In this document: one piece after another, positions 27,047 to 34,277 of the stretch
Layout of the letters: each line of letters begins with the position of its first letter
Position numbering within the stretch: position 1 is the stretch's first letter
DNA from: an uncultured Flavobacteriaceae bacterium
GTDB lineage: Bacteria > Bacteroidota > Bacteroidia > Flavobacteriales > Flavobacteriaceae
Length of the DNA: 64,000 nucleotides
NCBI GenBank assembly: GCA_937923515.1
Contig: CALDUF010000064.1
Span: 1-64,000, forward strand
Direction of reading: 5' to 3'
The notes under the pieces: model-generated
The model's database searches: none
Told to the model about the DNA's origin: nothing
Seen by the model: the letters and a program-made list of their open reading frames with translations, nothing else
Translations under genes and position numbers: made by a program

Positions 27047-27931
27047 TTACGGATTAACAAAAGCCTCTATTTCCTCTGGCGTTATCTTAGGATTAGCACC
27101 GTTACTTTGAGCCACTAACGCACCAACGCCACAGGCATAGTCTACTGCCTTTTGCGGATGCGTATTATCAAGTAATAAACCTACCAAAGTGGCTAGAAAT
27201 GAATCTCCTGCTCCTACTGTATCCTTTACTTTTATTTGATATCCGCTGTTATAATATAGCTTACCATCAATAAGCAACACCGCACCATGTTCCCCTTTCG
27301 TTACACAAATTTTATCGGTTTTAGTTTGTTTTGCTATGAATAAAAGATTTTGTTCTAAAGCATTATATTTTGAATTGAAATACCCCGCAATTTCGTAAAG
27401 TTCGTCGTCATTAAATTTAATAAAATCTGATGCACGCATCATTTCAATAAGTTTTTCTTTTGAATAATGTGGCGGACGAAGATTTACGTCAAAAATTTTA
27501 AATGGCGCTATATCTATAAGCGCATTTAAAGTGGCTCTAGACACCTCATCTCTTGTTATTAAACTGCCATAAATAAACGCATCTGAATGTTTTACGGCAT
27601 GTTCTAAACTATCGGTTAATTCTATTTTATCCCAAGCGCGAGGGTGCATAATTTTATACGTGGCAGCACCCTTAGTGTTTAATGTTACTTCTACTTCTCC
27701 AGTAGTATAGTCTTTTTTATTTTGAACAAAAGACGTAGATAGCCCATTTTCTTCCAAATAATTCAGCAGTAATGCCCCGTTATCATCATCTCCTATTGCG
27801 CTTACCATGTTAACCTGATGGCTTAAAGCCGCTAAACGTAATGCGACATTTAAAGGTGCGCCGCCAATTTTTTTGTCACCATTAGGGAAAATATCCCAAA
27901 GCACTTCACCAAAACATACAATTTTTAACAT
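27047..27931 (-). CDS. PfkB-family carbohydrate kinase (fructokinase-like)
   Basis: GGAPLNVALRLAALSH, FDVNLRPPHYS, VKDTVGAGDSFLATLVG. Confidence 0.9.
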   Translation of the reverse strand: MLKIVCFGEVLWDIFPNGDKKIGGAPLNVALRLAALSHQVNMVSAIGDDDNGALLLNYLEENGLSTSFVQNKKDYTTGEVEVTLNTKGAATYKIMHPRAWDKIELTDSLEHAVKHSDAFIYGSLITRDEVSRATLNALIDIAPFKIFDVNLRPPHYSKEKLIEMMRASDFIKFNDDELYEIAGYFNSKYNALEQNLLFIAKQTKTDKICVTKGEHGAVLLIDGKLYYNSGYQIKVKDTVGAGDSFLATLVGLLLDNTHPQKAVDYACGVGALVAQSNGANPKITPEEIEAFVNP

Positions 27932-27946
27932 CTATGTAGTGTATTT

Positions 27947-29221
27947 TTAGTAAATATTAGACTCCATAGTACGTTGGCTTATTGAGTTATTAAACACTTG
28001 AAGCATACGCTTTGCGATACCTGTCCAACCAAAATTTCGGCGTGCAAAACGAGCACCTTCTACAGATAATTCGTTTCTTAAATTAGGATACAAAAGTGGC
28101 ATTGCCATCATAGCACCAAATTCTAAAGGCCTATGAGGATCTGCGAACAAGGCTTGATTTCCAAAATCAATTAAATCGTTTAATCCACCATGTACTGTTA
28201 CCACACTTGGTGTTCCACAAGCCATGGCTTCAATTGCAACCATTCCAAAAGGTTCGTAACGCGAGGGCATTGCAAAAATATTGGCAGAACGGTATACGTT
28301 GGCCAAATCATCATCTTCAATGTAATTTTTCCATTTTATTTTGTCGTTGATACCAAGCTCGTTCGCCAGTTTTTTTAATTTTGTAATACCCTGTTTATCT
28401 TGCGCAGAATCGCCACCAACGGCTGCTACTAAACGGGCTTCTGGCACCAATTCAAATAAGGTTGGTAATGATTTTATTAAAAGATCATATCCTTTATTAT
28501 GCGCCATTCGCCCCAAGGCTAAAACATCAGTAGGGTCTATATCGTACTTGGTTCTTATTTTATCATTTTCTTTTGATGGCACTGGAAAAAATCTATTTTC
28601 ATCAATACCAGGTGGAATCATAGAACAATTTCTAGGTAGCACATCGTATTGCTGTGTTAATAAATCTACTTGAGGTATTGTTGTAGCAATAACATGATTA
28701 CACATTTGAAAAACAAAATACTCCTTACGTATCCTTTCCTTAAAACGGTAGGTTTGCTCCATTTCCTTCTCATCCATATCACTTCCCATGGTATGCTGTT
28801 TCCACCAACCTAAAGAATGTGGCGTATGCACGTGCGAAACACCCAATTCTTCTGCAATTTTTTGTCCTGCCCAGCCTGCATCCCAATAGTGAGAATATAC
28901 GATATCGTATTTCTTACCTTCTTTTTTTATTGCTGCCAAGGTATTGGTTACAAACTTTTTAAGATGATCGTGCATGTCTTCCTTTCGTATAAACTCTTTA
29001 CCTCCGAAAGGTATACGCCATACATTAAAATTATCATTTACATGATCGTATTCAGGTTGATCTTCAAATTGCCGCGTTAACAGGTCAACGCTTTTACCTA
29101 ACCTACTAAAACGATCTGCAAGTTCCAATACATACACTACTTGCCCTCCTGTATCTGGTTTTCCTAATTCTGCATTTGCTGCTACATATCCGTGTAGAGA
29201 GATCATTAAAATAGACTTCAT
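27947..29221 (-). CDS. GT4 glycosyltransferase, sucrose-phosphate synthase/mannosylfructose-phosphate synthase-like
   Basis: SLHGYVAANAELGKPDTGGQVVYVLELA, HTPHSLGWWK, MPSRYEPFGMVAIEAMACGTPSVVTVHGG. Confidence 0.88.
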   Translation of the reverse strand: MKSILMISLHGYVAANAELGKPDTGGQVVYVLELADRFSRLGKSVDLLTRQFEDQPEYDHVNDNFNVWRIPFGGKEFIRKEDMHDHLKKFVTNTLAAIKKEGKKYDIVYSHYWDAGWAGQKIAEELGVSHVHTPHSLGWWKQHTMGSDMDEKEMEQTYRFKERIRKEYFVFQMCNHVIATTIPQVDLLTQQYDVLPRNCSMIPPGIDENRFFPVPSKENDKIRTKYDIDPTDVLALGRMAHNKGYDLLIKSLPTLFELVPEARLVAAVGGDSAQDKQGITKLKKLANELGINDKIKWKNYIEDDDLANVYRSANIFAMPSRYEPFGMVAIEAMACGTPSVVTVHGGLNDLIDFGNQALFADPHRPLEFGAMMAMPLLYPNLRNELSVEGARFARRNFGWTGIAKRMLQVFNNSISQRTMESNIY

Positions 29222-29243
29222 ATAATTGTAATTTTAGTTATTA

Positions 29244-31325
29244 TTAAATAATTTTCAAATCGTGACATGCTGAAATATATTGTGCAGCAGACCATGCTTG
29301 GTAGGCTTTACCCATGGGTTTCCCAGTGGTTCCATGCGCCCATTCATTAAATTCCCATGCGTCATTAATACCTTCTTTGTTTATTAAGGCTAGTTTATAT
29401 AACTCAGCAATGGCTATATCTTTTAATCCTAGTTTGTTAACAAATTTTACCCAAAACCCTCCTACAAATGGCCAAATACCACCGTTGTGATAATGATTTG
29501 GAAGATTTAATAAGTTTACTGTATAATAAGGTCTCCAATCTGGGTCTCCTGGGCTTACAACTGGATACACGTTTGCTACAGGAAAAGGATCGTTAACCCC
29601 TACACCCAACATAAATTTAAAAGTTTGATGCGCTTTTTCAGAATCTATCGTACCGTGTAAAAAGGCTAAAATATTGCCTAATGTATCACAACGCCAACTA
29701 AAGTCGAAAGGGGTGGTTTGCGCAATAAGATAAGAGGTATCTCCTAAGGTGAATTGTTTTTCTGCAAAGGATACCGATTGAAATAATTTTTGTTGGGTTG
29801 ACGGCCAAAAGTTTTGCAAAATTTCTTTTTTAATCACTTGAGACCAACGAATATACTCACCAGCTTGCTCGTGATCTCCCAACATTTCCAAAAGCCTACC
29901 AAAACAAACATTAGATCGGTACCACAAAATTTCGTCATAAAGTATGTTGTAGCTCCTACCAAATAAGTCTGTCCAATCTCCAGCTTCAGGAATTTCTAAA
30001 AGCGCATCATTATTACTATCGTGGGCTCCTAACCAGCGCATGGTTTCCTTTATATCTGATATATACTTGCGTAAAAACTCTATGTCTTTAGTTACATTTA
30101 CATATTCATAAAAGGCTATTACAACCCAAATACCACTATCTATGGAACAAATACCGCCAACGCCCGAATAATCTGGAACATTATCTTTTATTCTAACGTT
30201 TGATGGAATTTGTCCGTTTCTGGAAATATGCTCAAATAATGTTACTAAAGTTTGTCTTGCACATTTGTGAATTTCTTTATCTTGTTTAATTAAAGGTAAG
30301 GCGCCTATTACAGTAATAGCACCATCTCTGGCCCATACGCTATAATAATTTTCGTCTGTACCGTGGGCAACATTATCTTTAATAGAACATGCAGAAAAGC
30401 CAAGTGGTGTAATATTTTTTTTAAGTGCTTCAATTGCTTTTGCGTAGCCTTCTTTTATTAGAGCCATCTTTTCGTCTTCATCCTCTTCGGCAATATGGTC
30501 TAGTTCCTGCTTAATGAAAAAATCCTTTGTATGGTCGTTATTAGCACTTACTTCGGCCTCTTTTGGCAACACTTCATAATATATCAACCCTTCTATTACA
30601 CCATCGCCCTTTTCATTTTCAGTATGGTATACTTGTTTATGTTTTGTGTATTGGTACAGCTCTTCGTGTGCATTTGCTACAACAATACCTTTTATGTGTT
30701 TTATATCGAACATTGCAGAATCGTTACCGCTATCTCCTGCGACTAAAACAGCTTCGGGTTTAATACTTAATTTCTTGAGAAGCCACTGTAAAGCATTAGC
30801 CTTATTTGCGAATTTGGGTAGAATATCTAAAAACTTATTTCCTGAATAAACTACATTAATATGCATATTAGCATCAGTAAAATCTTGCTCTACGCTTGCT
30901 ACCAACTCTGGCGTAGCGTCATGAAAAAAATAGCTTCTTTTATATGCATGCTGAAATTTTGAAGGTTGTTCACTAATAGGATGGTTTATATTTTGAATTA
31001 CGTTTTCAACTTGTTCTAAATCCCATCCATCATCAAGTACATCATTAAATTCCTTAATGACGTTTTTTTCATTATAATTATAAATATGAGTACCAACTCC
31101 CGAAATTATAAAATCGGGTTCTGGAAGAATTTTTTTGTCAATTAAATTAAGAACATCGTCAATTAGGCGTCCTGTATTATAAGTAAGTAAAACATCATTT
31201 GGTTTATAATTTTCCCAAACTGTTTTAAAATTACTTTTATAGGTATGAAAATCTATTAATGTATTATCAATATCGAAAGAAAGAAGTTTTATATCTGGGT
31301 AATTTTTGTCTTCTGTTTGACTCAT
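29244..31325 (-). CDS. Bifunctional: sucrose-phosphatase-like HAD domain fused to 6-hairpin glycosidase (GH100 / amylo-glucosidase-like)
   Basis: N-term LLSFDIDNTLID, LLTYNTGR, PDFIISGVGTHIY, VLVAGDSGNDSAMF; C-term ICSIDSGIWVVIAFYEY, EAGDWTDLFGR, YHNGGIWPFVGGFW. Confidence 0.85.
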   Translation of the reverse strand: MSQTEDKNYPDIKLLSFDIDNTLIDFHTYKSNFKTVWENYKPNDVLLTYNTGRLIDDVLNLIDKKILPEPDFIISGVGTHIYNYNEKNVIKEFNDVLDDGWDLEQVENVIQNINHPISEQPSKFQHAYKRSYFFHDATPELVASVEQDFTDANMHINVVYSGNKFLDILPKFANKANALQWLLKKLSIKPEAVLVAGDSGNDSAMFDIKHIKGIVVANAHEELYQYTKHKQVYHTENEKGDGVIEGLIYYEVLPKEAEVSANNDHTKDFFIKQELDHIAEEDEDEKMALIKEGYAKAIEALKKNITPLGFSACSIKDNVAHGTDENYYSVWARDGAITVIGALPLIKQDKEIHKCARQTLVTLFEHISRNGQIPSNVRIKDNVPDYSGVGGICSIDSGIWVVIAFYEYVNVTKDIEFLRKYISDIKETMRWLGAHDSNNDALLEIPEAGDWTDLFGRSYNILYDEILWYRSNVCFGRLLEMLGDHEQAGEYIRWSQVIKKEILQNFWPSTQQKLFQSVSFAEKQFTLGDTSYLIAQTTPFDFSWRCDTLGNILAFLHGTIDSEKAHQTFKFMLGVGVNDPFPVANVYPVVSPGDPDWRPYYTVNLLNLPNHYHNGGIWPFVGGFWVKFVNKLGLKDIAIAELYKLALINKEGINDAWEFNEWAHGTTGKPMGKAYQAWSAAQYISACHDLKII

Positions 31326-31522
31326 AAAAAGTTATAAAATTTAAATTTTTAACGGTTTTTGGATAAAATACAGCTAAAAACGACTAAAAACAAGCTAAAA
31401 CTGGCAAACTTTAGAAGATTTTGCAATGTTATAATTTAGAGTTAGCTCACTAAGAATGTGCAAACTTTAGCCATACAATTTTAACGATTATACAAAATTG
31501 AAATTAACTCATATAAATAAAA

Positions 31523-31556
31523 AAAGTGCCAGTTTGAATTTTCAAACTGGCACTTT
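31523..31556 (-). terminator. Strong terminator hairpin downstream of AAA+ gene
   Basis: Perfect 16-bp arms aaagtgccagtttgaa-tt-ttcaaactggcacttt. Confidence 0.85.
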
Positions 31557-31582: not shown

Positions 31583-33049
31583 TTAAATACCGCTTATAAA
31601 ACTACCATAGGGATCTTTAAATTGTATCCCTTCTGAAAAACGATGCTTACTTAGTTGCTTGTATTCTGCAAGCGCCCAAAGCACAAACTCTTTAACAAAA
31701 TAACTGTCTTCTTTTTGAAGTTTTGGTTGGTATTCTCCCAACAAATCATCAAGCGGTGAAACAGCATCTAGCATGTTTTTATACTCTTTATCTCTTAAAT
31801 CATCTAAGAGCTCAAAACCATCTTTTTGATTAAAAAACCAAGAAATTATGTCATCATAAGGTGTTTCTGCATCTTGTTTTTTAAGCTTTTCAATTTTAGG
31901 AAAAAACTCATCAAACAATGTTTTAACAGCTTCTCCTATTAAATTGTAAGCTACTACCGCAGCACCTTCTTGCTCGCCTTCGTAAACCAGTTCTACTTTA
32001 CCAGTAATGGCTGGAATTATACCAATAAAATCTGTTAAGCGCAATGCTGTTGAAGCATCGCCTGAAACTAAAGCGCGCCTTTCGGCAGTACTCAATAAAT
32101 TTTCGAATGCAGTGATACTTAATCGGGCACTAACGCCTGATTTCGCATCGATATATTCGCTTTCTCGTGCTTCAAAAACAATTTGCTCTAAAAGATCTTT
32201 TGCCAAATCTGGCACGTATACATGTTCTTTTTGTCCTTCAAGCAAGTTAGCTTCTTGCTCAGTTATTAAACGTGCTGTTTCAATATCTTCTGGATAGTGC
32301 GTTAAAATTTGCGAGCCAATTCTATCCTTTAAAGGCGTAACAATACTACCTCTATTAGTGTAATCTTCTGGGTTTGCCGTAAATAGAAATTGTATATCTA
32401 ATGGTAAGCGCACTTTAAATCCTCTAATTTGAATATCTCCTTCTTGTAAAATATTAAATAATGCCACCTGAATTCTAGCTTGTAAATCGGGCAACTCATT
32501 GATTACAAAAATACAACGGTTTGCTCTTGGTATCATGCCGTAGTGAATTACACGATCATCAGCATAACTTAGCTTCAAATTTGCTGCTTTTATAGGATCT
32601 ACATCTCCAATAATATCTGCAACAGTTACATCTGGCGTTGCTAATTTTTCAGCAAAACGGGCACTTCTGTGCAACCAAGCTATTGGTGTATCATCACCTT
32701 TTTCATTTATCAGTTCTGTAGCAAACCTTGATATTGGGTTTAAAGGATCATCATTAACATCAGAACCTTCAACAACGGGAATATATTCGTCTAATAAGTT
32801 CAACATTAATCGTGCTAAACGTGTTTTTGCTTGTCCGCGTAGCCCAAGTAAATTTATATTATGTCGTGATAAAATAGCACGTTCTAACTCTGGAATCACA
32901 GTGTTTTCATAACCATGAACACCTTGAAAGGTAGTCTCCTTATTTTTTATCTTTTGAATAAGGTTATCCCTTAATTCATCTTTAATAGATTTGGTTTGAT
33001 ATCCTGCGGCTTTTAATGCGCCTAATGTTTTTATCTGTTCTATTTTCAT
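31583..33049 (-). CDS. MoxR/magnesium-chelatase-subunit-I-like AAA+ ATPase
   Basis: NINLLGLRGQAKTRLARL Walker A, CIFVINELPDL Walker B region, VALFNILQEGDIQIRGFKVRLPLDIQFLFTANPED. Confidence 0.88.
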   Translation of the reverse strand: MKIEQIKTLGALKAAGYQTKSIKDELRDNLIQKIKNKETTFQGVHGYENTVIPELERAILSRHNINLLGLRGQAKTRLARLMLNLLDEYIPVVEGSDVNDDPLNPISRFATELINEKGDDTPIAWLHRSARFAEKLATPDVTVADIIGDVDPIKAANLKLSYADDRVIHYGMIPRANRCIFVINELPDLQARIQVALFNILQEGDIQIRGFKVRLPLDIQFLFTANPEDYTNRGSIVTPLKDRIGSQILTHYPEDIETARLITEQEANLLEGQKEHVYVPDLAKDLLEQIVFEARESEYIDAKSGVSARLSITAFENLLSTAERRALVSGDASTALRLTDFIGIIPAITGKVELVYEGEQEGAAVVAYNLIGEAVKTLFDEFFPKIEKLKKQDAETPYDDIISWFFNQKDGFELLDDLRDKEYKNMLDAVSPLDDLLGEYQPKLQKEDSYFVKEFVLWALAEYKQLSKHRFSEGIQFKDPYGSFISGI

Positions 33050-33146
33050 GTAATTAATTAGATTTTTACTATTGGCATATACCGCTAGTATTTACTAAAA
33101 ATTTTCTTTTTTTATTATTTAAAGCGAAAGGCCTATAGCCGACTTA

Positions 33147-34277
33147 TTACCCTCTAATTCTCTTTTTTCTATTGGTTTCGTAATCTTCAAAAATCATTTC
33201 ACCTAAACCTTTAAGGCCTGTGTAAAAGGCTTTTCCTTGGTTGGCATATGTAAACTCTCGTACAAACTGCATTAAATAGCTATCTTTTGCAATCATAAAA
33301 GTAGTTATTGGTATATGCAACCGTCTGGCTTGTTGCGCCATCATATAACACTTATTTATAATATGCGTATCTAGCCCGTTGCTGTTTTTATAATATTGCC
33401 CATCGGGTAACCGTAAACAACTGGGTTTACCATCGGTTATCATAAAAATTTGCTTGTTGGTATTTCGTTTTCGCCTTAGTAAATCCATAGCCAACTCTAA
33501 TCCTGCTACGGTATTGGTGTGGTATGGCCCCACTTTTAAATACGGCAAGTCTTTAATTTCAATTCGCCACGCATCATTACCAAAAACAATAATATCAAGA
33601 GTGTCTTTAGGATATCTAGTGGTAATTAATTCAGCAAGTGCCATAGCTACACGTTTGGCTGGGGTGATACGATCTTCACCATACAATATCATACTGTGAC
33701 TAATATCTATCATTAGCACTGTACTCATTTGAGATTTATGTAGTGTTTCTTCAACTACCAAATCGTCTTCAGAAAGTGTAAAATCTGAAATACCATGATT
33801 TATCTGCGCATTTTTTAAACTTTCAGTCATCGAAACTTTATCTAAAGCATCCCCAAATTGATACCCTCTAAAATCGCCAGTATGTTCATCGCCAATACCT
33901 GGGCTTTTGCTTTTGTGATTGCCTTGACCACTGCGTTTAATCTTTCCAAAAATTTGATCTAAAGCTTGCTGCCTAATAGCACGTTCTGTTTTTGCTGTAA
34001 TAGCTAATGATGTGCCATCGCCATCGGGATCTATTTCTTCACGCAAATAGCCTTTCTTTTTTAAATCTTCAATAAAATCATCTATGGTATACTCTGGCGT
34101 TGTGAGTTTATATTCTTTATCTAACTCGCGCAACCAGCTAATGGCTTCGTCAAAATCGCCAGAAGTGTGTGTTATTAATTCTTTAAAAACCTCAAAAAGT
34201 GTATCAAAAGGCGATTTATAAGGTGCTTCATAAGTTTTAAATACAAAGCCTTTTCTAAAATTTTTGTTCTCTTTCAT
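33147..34277 (-). CDS. VWA domain protein (paired with AAA+ ATPase)
   Basis: STVLMIDISHSMILYGEDR MIDAS DxSxS, IFMITDGKPSCLR. Confidence 0.9.
   Translation of the reverse strand: MKENKNFRKGFVFKTYEAPYKSPFDTLFEVFKELITHTSGDFDEAISWLRELDKEYKLTTPEYTIDDFIEDLKKKGYLREEIDPDGDGTSLAITAKTERAIRQQALDQIFGKIKRSGQGNHKSKSPGIGDEHTGDFRGYQFGDALDKVSMTESLKNAQINHGISDFTLSEDDLVVEETLHKSQMSTVLMIDISHSMILYGEDRITPAKRVAMALAELITTRYPKDTLDIIVFGNDAWRIEIKDLPYLKVGPYHTNTVAGLELAMDLLRRKRNTNKQIFMITDGKPSCLRLPDGQYYKNSNGLDTHIINKCYMMAQQARRLHIPITTFMIAKDSYLMQFVREFTYANQGKAFYTGLKGLGEMIFEDYETNRKKRIRG

Follow-up and report, generated by a model that had tools for sequence, protein, structure and literature searches.

What is known of sucrose synthesis comes mostly from photosynthetic organisms. 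In Synechococcus PCC 7002, sucrose is both made and broken down through the operon spsA-sppA-frkA-amsA (PMC11046441; PMC4390843), and cyanobacteria also possess a bidomainal sucrose-phosphate synthase (SPS), a modular fusion of a GT4 glycosyltransferase and a phosphohydrolase (PMC4390843). Here, we describe a gene set in an uncultured Flavobacteriaceae bacterium, found in a stretch of 64,000 nucleotides (contig CALDUF010000064.1, positions 1 to 64,000; hereafter ‘the window’). Three closely spaced genes on the minus strand span positions 27047-31325, with intergenic gaps of 22 and 15 bp. The first (29244..31325, 693 aa) encodes a fusion of a HAD phosphatase with a six-hairpin glycosidase, the second (27947..29221, 424 aa) a glycosyltransferase with Pfam GT4 domains that appears to be of the SPS type, and the third (27047..27931, 294 aa) a PfkB kinase that is probably a fructokinase (FruK).

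We think it rather probable that these genes serve, as one module, to make and break sucrose (alpha-D-glucosyl-fructofuranoside) in the cytosol, a reading based on the domains, the catalytic residues, the folds that the two halves of the fusion match and the conserved gene order. The GT4 would transfer glucose from an NDP-glucose donor to fructose 6-phosphate (F6P), giving sucrose-6F-phosphate (S6P), from which the HAD half of the fusion would remove the phosphate. When sucrose is no longer needed, the glycosidase half would cleave it to glucose and fructose, and the kinase would return the fructose to F6P; the GT4 and HAD steps would build the sugar, and the glycosidase and PfkB steps recycle it. 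The sugar may act as an osmolyte or a short-term reserve. The original prediction for this DNA had placed synthesis, dephosphorylation, hydrolysis and re-phosphorylation in one operon; its domain calls hold by profile, residues, fold or context, and the disaccharide itself we infer.

The phosphatase–glycosidase fusion

Both enzymatic domains of the fusion lie in a single 693-aa open reading frame, as had been claimed, and are recognizable by Pfam match, fold match and catalytic residues alike. Pfam matched S6PP at residues 13-251 (214 bits, 3e-63, against a cut-off of 20.3), GDE_C at residues 326-683 (58.7 bits) and GH100 at residues 529-686 (51.7 bits). An AlphaFold2 model of the fusion built from 35 sequences is of moderate confidence (pLDDT 70, pTM 0.61), with poorly modelled loops in the glycosidase; using this model in Foldseek, the two halves were matched to sucrose-phosphatase and to GH100 invertases. 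A signal peptide is not evident when the N-terminus is read by eye, and the fusion is therefore placed in the cytosol.

The phosphatase half is a HAD-IIB domain of the sucrose-phosphatase type (residues 12-252; 30570..31292, minus strand) with the motifs FDIDNTLID (residues 17-25), TYNTGR (48-53) and GDSGND (197-202). The residues of HAD motifs I-IV (DxD, T, K, DxxxD) are D18, D20, T51, K175, D198 and D202; these are kept in 34/34 aligned fusions, except for T51, which is kept in 33 and is Ser in one. Synechocystis sucrose-phosphatase (1s2o) was found by phmmer at 3e-23 and is also the top Foldseek match of this half in the PDB. Sequence and model suggest that the HAD half is a phosphatase of the sucrose-phosphate type, for which hydrolysis of sucrose-6F-phosphate is predicted. 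It is joined to the glycosidase by a variable linker (residues 253-289; 30459..30569, minus strand).

The glycosidase half (residues 290-693; 29247..30458, minus strand) is a six-hairpin (alpha/alpha)6 domain related to GH100 and GDE_C by Pfam, and carries the motifs IDSGIW (395-400), AGDWTD (448-453) and YHNGGIWP (612-619). The best matches in the PDB outside the HAD fold were three GH100 invertases: 5z74 (InvB solved with sucrose), 5goq (InvA with glucose) and 6ttj (an Arabidopsis neutral invertase). The presumed catalytic acids, taken from the alignment to InvA, are D453 (codon 29967-29969, minus strand) in GDWTD and E661 (codon 29343-29345, minus strand) in FNEW, which align with the InvA residues that we take to be D188 and E414 in the numbering of the InvA paper. 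A study in pepper names a corresponding Asp and Glu (PMC5796173). Both acids, whose absence would have spoken against a working hydrolase, are invariant in 12 divergent relatives as well as in the 35-row alignment. The description of this half as GH100/amylo-glucosidase-like is thus borne out in its fold, its acids and its Pfam matches, but it is not a canonical GH100 enzyme: PF12899 scores 51.7 bits, with its best stretch in the C-terminal 158 residues, against 624.8 bits for a true GH100 protein of Acidithiobacillus, and identity to GH100 enzymes in the fold alignment is only 17-19%. By sequence it is a distant and uncharacterized relative of GH100, for which sucrose would be the obvious first candidate substrate.

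The slightly higher score of GDE_C than of GH100 (58.7 versus 51.7 bits) would suit an alpha-glucan enzyme, either amylo-alpha-1,6-glucosidase-like or a transglycosidase, with a part in glycogen metabolism instead of that of the disaccharide. We regard this as very unlikely, given that GH100 invertases come first among the six-hairpin enzymes in the fold search, that the domain is fused to a sucrose-phosphatase domain and strictly linked to the GT4, and that a relative of it is fused to a PfkB kinase. A divergent relative of the glycosidase was also seen between two glycosyltransferase genes (L100:5911-9777) in a flavobacterium without a listed fusion, and no relative was found in the viral contigs searched.

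Across a set of marine Flavobacteriaceae the fusion is a conserved feature, and it is not peculiar to this genome. It is full-length and open in 33 named loci of the family, at 78-91% identity, among them loci of Algibacter, Hyunsoonleella, Jejuia, Polaribacter, Winogradskyella, Seonamhaeicola, Gaetbulibacter, Flaviramulus, Confluentibacter, Aestuariivivens and Yeosuana. In a different family of the Bacteroidota, a single genome (G508) has it full-length at 57% identity. This recurrence in 34 genomes rules out an origin of the fusion as a frameshift between two separate genes or as a chimera. A survey of 300 genomes of the same family found the fusion in 23, counting the window's own, so that the original prediction's view of a fused hydrolase as unusual in a flavobacterium holds only by half, the fusion being common in one part of the family. 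The GT4 gene follows the fusion directly in 34/34 loci (the 33 named loci and G508). Among the 34 fusions, mean pairwise identity is 90% in the glycosidase, 73% in the HAD domain and 59% in the linker, and mean identity to the window is 91% for the glycosidase, 88% for the GT4, 75% for the HAD domain and 62% for FruK; this pattern gives no sign of decay in either half, and the tightest constraint is on the glycosidase. In one of the surveyed genomes (G071; L122:5551-8934) the glycosidase half is interrupted by one in-frame stop, and no FruK relative is found at 1e-25; the module may be decaying, or the sequence may be in error.

Glycosyltransferase, kinase and the sugar

The residues that bind fructose, phosphate and the glucosyl donor have been described for the SPS of T. 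elongatus (TeSPS; PMC7264703). When these were mapped by alignment onto the window GT4, it was found to retain Q51, H158, R178, R249, E331, P332 and E339, including the E-x7-E motif and the donor histidine; A48 is replaced by T and R105 by K, both as in other SPS proteins, and R253 by N. The mapping uses an offset of 3 between the TeSPS chain and the numbering of the paper, which is our own assignment and fits A48, Q51, R105, H158 and R178. A sucrose-synthase-type GT4, which has Q at R178, is ruled out by the retention of that residue. An MshA-type GT4 was likewise rejected: MshA is the best NCBIfam match (229.5 bits, versus 203.6 bits for the SPS model TIGR02472), but MshA has M at Q51 and S at P332, and the acceptor-site residues of the window GT4 are of the SPS type. 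Two further blocks, PDTGGQVVYVLEL and RIPFGG, match sucrose synthase and HoSPS. In the GT4 tree, the protein groups with its G508 counterpart and one from a Paracoccus plasmid in a deep clade of their own (100/100), which lies beyond the SPS references, on the TeSPS/MshA side and apart from the SPS–SPP fusions of other Bacteroidota. Of 390 genomes from the phylum, two pass at 1e-45, the window's own and G508. The AlphaFold2 model of the GT4 was too poor (pLDDT 57) and was not used for fold search. The SPS-like assignment of the original prediction agrees with these F6P-binding residues, which are not the MshA or sucrose-synthase variants and do not point to the non-hexose acceptor that would have spoken against it; a glucosyl donor with F6P as acceptor can be predicted from the sequence.

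The kinase has a PfkB domain (147 bits, Pfam) with the GAGDSF motif, and its best phmmer match among solved structures is by far 2qhp, ‘Fructokinase’ (3e-47; the next is at 6e-16), in line with the fructokinase-like label that it had been given. It scores 93 of the 450 bits of the equivalog level of PRK09434, and is 52% identical to the PfkB kinase that a different genus of the family has beside its SPS–SPP fusions. Its sequence suggests that it is probably a fructokinase. FruK lies within the downstream stretch examined in 21/33 named loci and somewhere in the genome in 22/24 fusion genomes, being absent from two. This patchiness, with FruK not adjacent in 12/33 loci, would fit a module whose product is a glucoside of something other than fructose, such as a phosphorylated polyol or acid: the GT4 would use another phosphorylated acceptor, the HAD domain would dephosphorylate the product, the glycosidase would hydrolyse it, and the kinase would act on the released moiety or be a bystander. 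The phosphate-binding Lys/Arg of the window GT4 is shared by MshA-type GT4s, whose acceptor is phosphorylated inositol, and MshA, as noted, gives the window GT4 its best NCBIfam score. The SPS-type Q51 and P332, the two blocks shared with sucrose synthase and HoSPS, the best match of the HAD half to sucrose-phosphatase by both sequence and fold, and the presence of FruK in nearly all fusion genomes make such a product distinctly unlikely.

Fructose as one moiety is also pointed to by the plasmid p1 of Paracoccus sp. TOH (L104:5677-9269), where a GH32-like protein (annotated as hypothetical), a separate S6PP HAD protein and a GT4 58% identical to that of the window follow one another in this order. 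If right, this set would be the same module in a second form with another hydrolase, in which an unrelated family of the beta-fructosidase type occupies the same slot; a GH32-like enzyme in place of the six-hairpin enzyme would then point to a fructofuranoside. The kinase and the GH32-like context require fructose but not glucose, and so also suit mannosylfructose or another analogue of sucrose, for which the GT4 would combine F6P with GDP-mannose or some other donor, the HAD domain would be the matching phosphatase and the glycosidase would cleave that fructoside. The GT4 and HAD families in question also include the mannosylfructose enzymes of Agrobacterium, and the deep GT4 clade outside the SPS references, with a score short of the SPS equivalog cut-off, would be in keeping with another donor. 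We nevertheless consider this rather unlikely: the glycosidase half is nearest in fold to sucrose-cleaving, glucose-binding GH100 enzymes, and most glycoside hydrolase families of this six-hairpin shape act on glucosides. Mannosylfructose enzyme sequences were sought in the collections searched and none was found.

Several points weigh against the make-and-break module for sucrose that we favour. The HAD half scores below the cut-off of the NCBIfam equivalog TIGR01485 (162.3 versus 183.65 bits) and the GT4 far below that of TIGR02472 (203.6 versus 576 bits). An N-terminal S6PP-type HAD domain is fused to a GT20 domain (trehalose-phosphate-synthase family) in a 752-aa protein elsewhere (L099:5802-8060, minus strand), and membership of the HAD family alone is therefore no proof of S6P as substrate. 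For the Paracoccus neighbour, the match to GH32 is weak, at 24.6 bits where the cut-off is 22.1, and it is marginal against solved structures. The closest outside relatives of the glycosidase (Deinococcus and Anaerolineae, 33-36%) lie not in sucrose clusters but in other sugar-catabolic ones, and the glycosidase tree places the domain, at modest support, closer to them than to the MFS/PfkB set of the Bacteroidota; its specificity therefore rests on context and fold, and not on close characterized kin. Finally, the four steps together would make a futile cycle, so that control of at least one half of the fusion must be assumed. One way in which this might be achieved, which we put forward tentatively and as doubtful, is that the fusion, with the last synthetic and the first degradative step on a single chain, acts as a bifunctional, antagonistic homeostat for an osmolyte, in which ions, salt or a ligand would switch the active half and so set the level of the sugar; the logic would be comparable to that of Rel/SpoT or PFK-2/FBPase-2.

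Neighbouring genes and related gene sets

A terminator-like hairpin (31523..31556, minus strand), with a 15-pair stem followed by a T run, lies behind the upstream MoxR-type gene and was recognized by consensus match only. This hairpin would close the preceding gene, and the module therefore probably has its own promoter, which the layout suggests would lie in 31326-31520; in a promoter consensus scan of the module, sites were no more numerous than in shuffled sequence, and no promoter is claimed. The upstream MoxR-type AAA and VWA genes (window 31583-34277, minus strand) are kept beside the module in 28/33 named loci, an adjacency that is probably inherited synteny and not function.

Relatives of the individual domains are found in several other arrangements. 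Standalone relatives of the glycosidase in Bacteroidota stand beside an MFS transporter and a PfkB kinase, some with a LacI-like regulator (MFS was confirmed by Pfam in L086, and the other neighbours were read by eye). The relative fused to a PfkB kinase (L085:7028-9187, minus strand) adjoins a gene that by eye resembles a sodium-solute symporter. GH100-annotated relatives on two Deinococcus plasmids (L106:7983-12865 and L109:7992-12940) are accompanied by genes for a class II aldolase, a four-carbon acid sugar kinase and a sugar kinase, which suggests a substrate other than sucrose for them. Other Bacteroidota (L091-L098) encode SPS–SPP fusions, mostly beside FruK and some with sucrose synthase, and plasmid p6 of Acidithiobacillus sp. 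AMEEHan (L108) carries MFS, FruK, GH100 and SPS–SPP genes together. We count this plasmid, the MFS/PfkB clusters of Bacteroidota and the PfkB fusion, like the Paracoccus set, as contextual support for the sucrose reading.

Comparison with described systems

An open-access literature search, with subscription journals outside its scope, returned nothing on a phosphatase–hydrolase fusion or on flavobacterial sucrose synthesis, and no model specific for such a joining appeared in the NCBIfam search of the fusion. Make-and-break sucrose clusters and GT4–phosphohydrolase fusions were already known; the phosphatase–hydrolase fusion is, as far as searched, new, and it is widespread in marine flavobacteria. 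If the proposed function is true, a sucrose-type module would add an internal sugar pool to common marine flavobacteria such as Polaribacter, Winogradskyella and Algibacter, among others, and the fused opposed enzymes offer a defined system for studying how osmolyte synthesis and breakdown are kept apart.

In the mannosylfructose pathway of Agrobacterium, a GT4 and an S6PP-family HAD enzyme likewise yield first a phosphorylated and then a free fructoside; we know of no fused hydrolase in that pathway. Clusters of SPS, SPP and FruK genes occur in cyanobacteria, as the original prediction had stated (PMC11046441; PMC4390843): in the Synechococcus PCC 7002 operon, genes for synthesis, dephosphorylation, cleavage and a fructokinase are clustered as they are here, and sucrose serves there as an osmolyte, but cleavage is by amylosucrase (GH13), and the phosphatase and the cleaving enzyme are separate proteins. 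The Acidithiobacillus plasmid shares with the window the clustering of a fructokinase, a six-hairpin invertase and SPS- and SPP-type domains; its HAD domain, however, is fused to the GT4, and its GH100 enzyme is canonical (625 bits) and stands alone. The GH100 alkaline/neutral invertases (Anabaena InvA/InvB, plant CINV) have the (alpha/alpha)6 fold, the catalytic acids and the YHNGGxWP block in common with the window glycosidase, to which their similarity is only distant (17-19%; 52 versus 625 bits). The bidomainal SPS of cyanobacteria and of L091-L098 unites the same two catalytic domain families but places the HAD domain C-terminal to the GT4, whereas in the window the GT4 stands alone and the HAD domain is N-terminal to a glycosidase.

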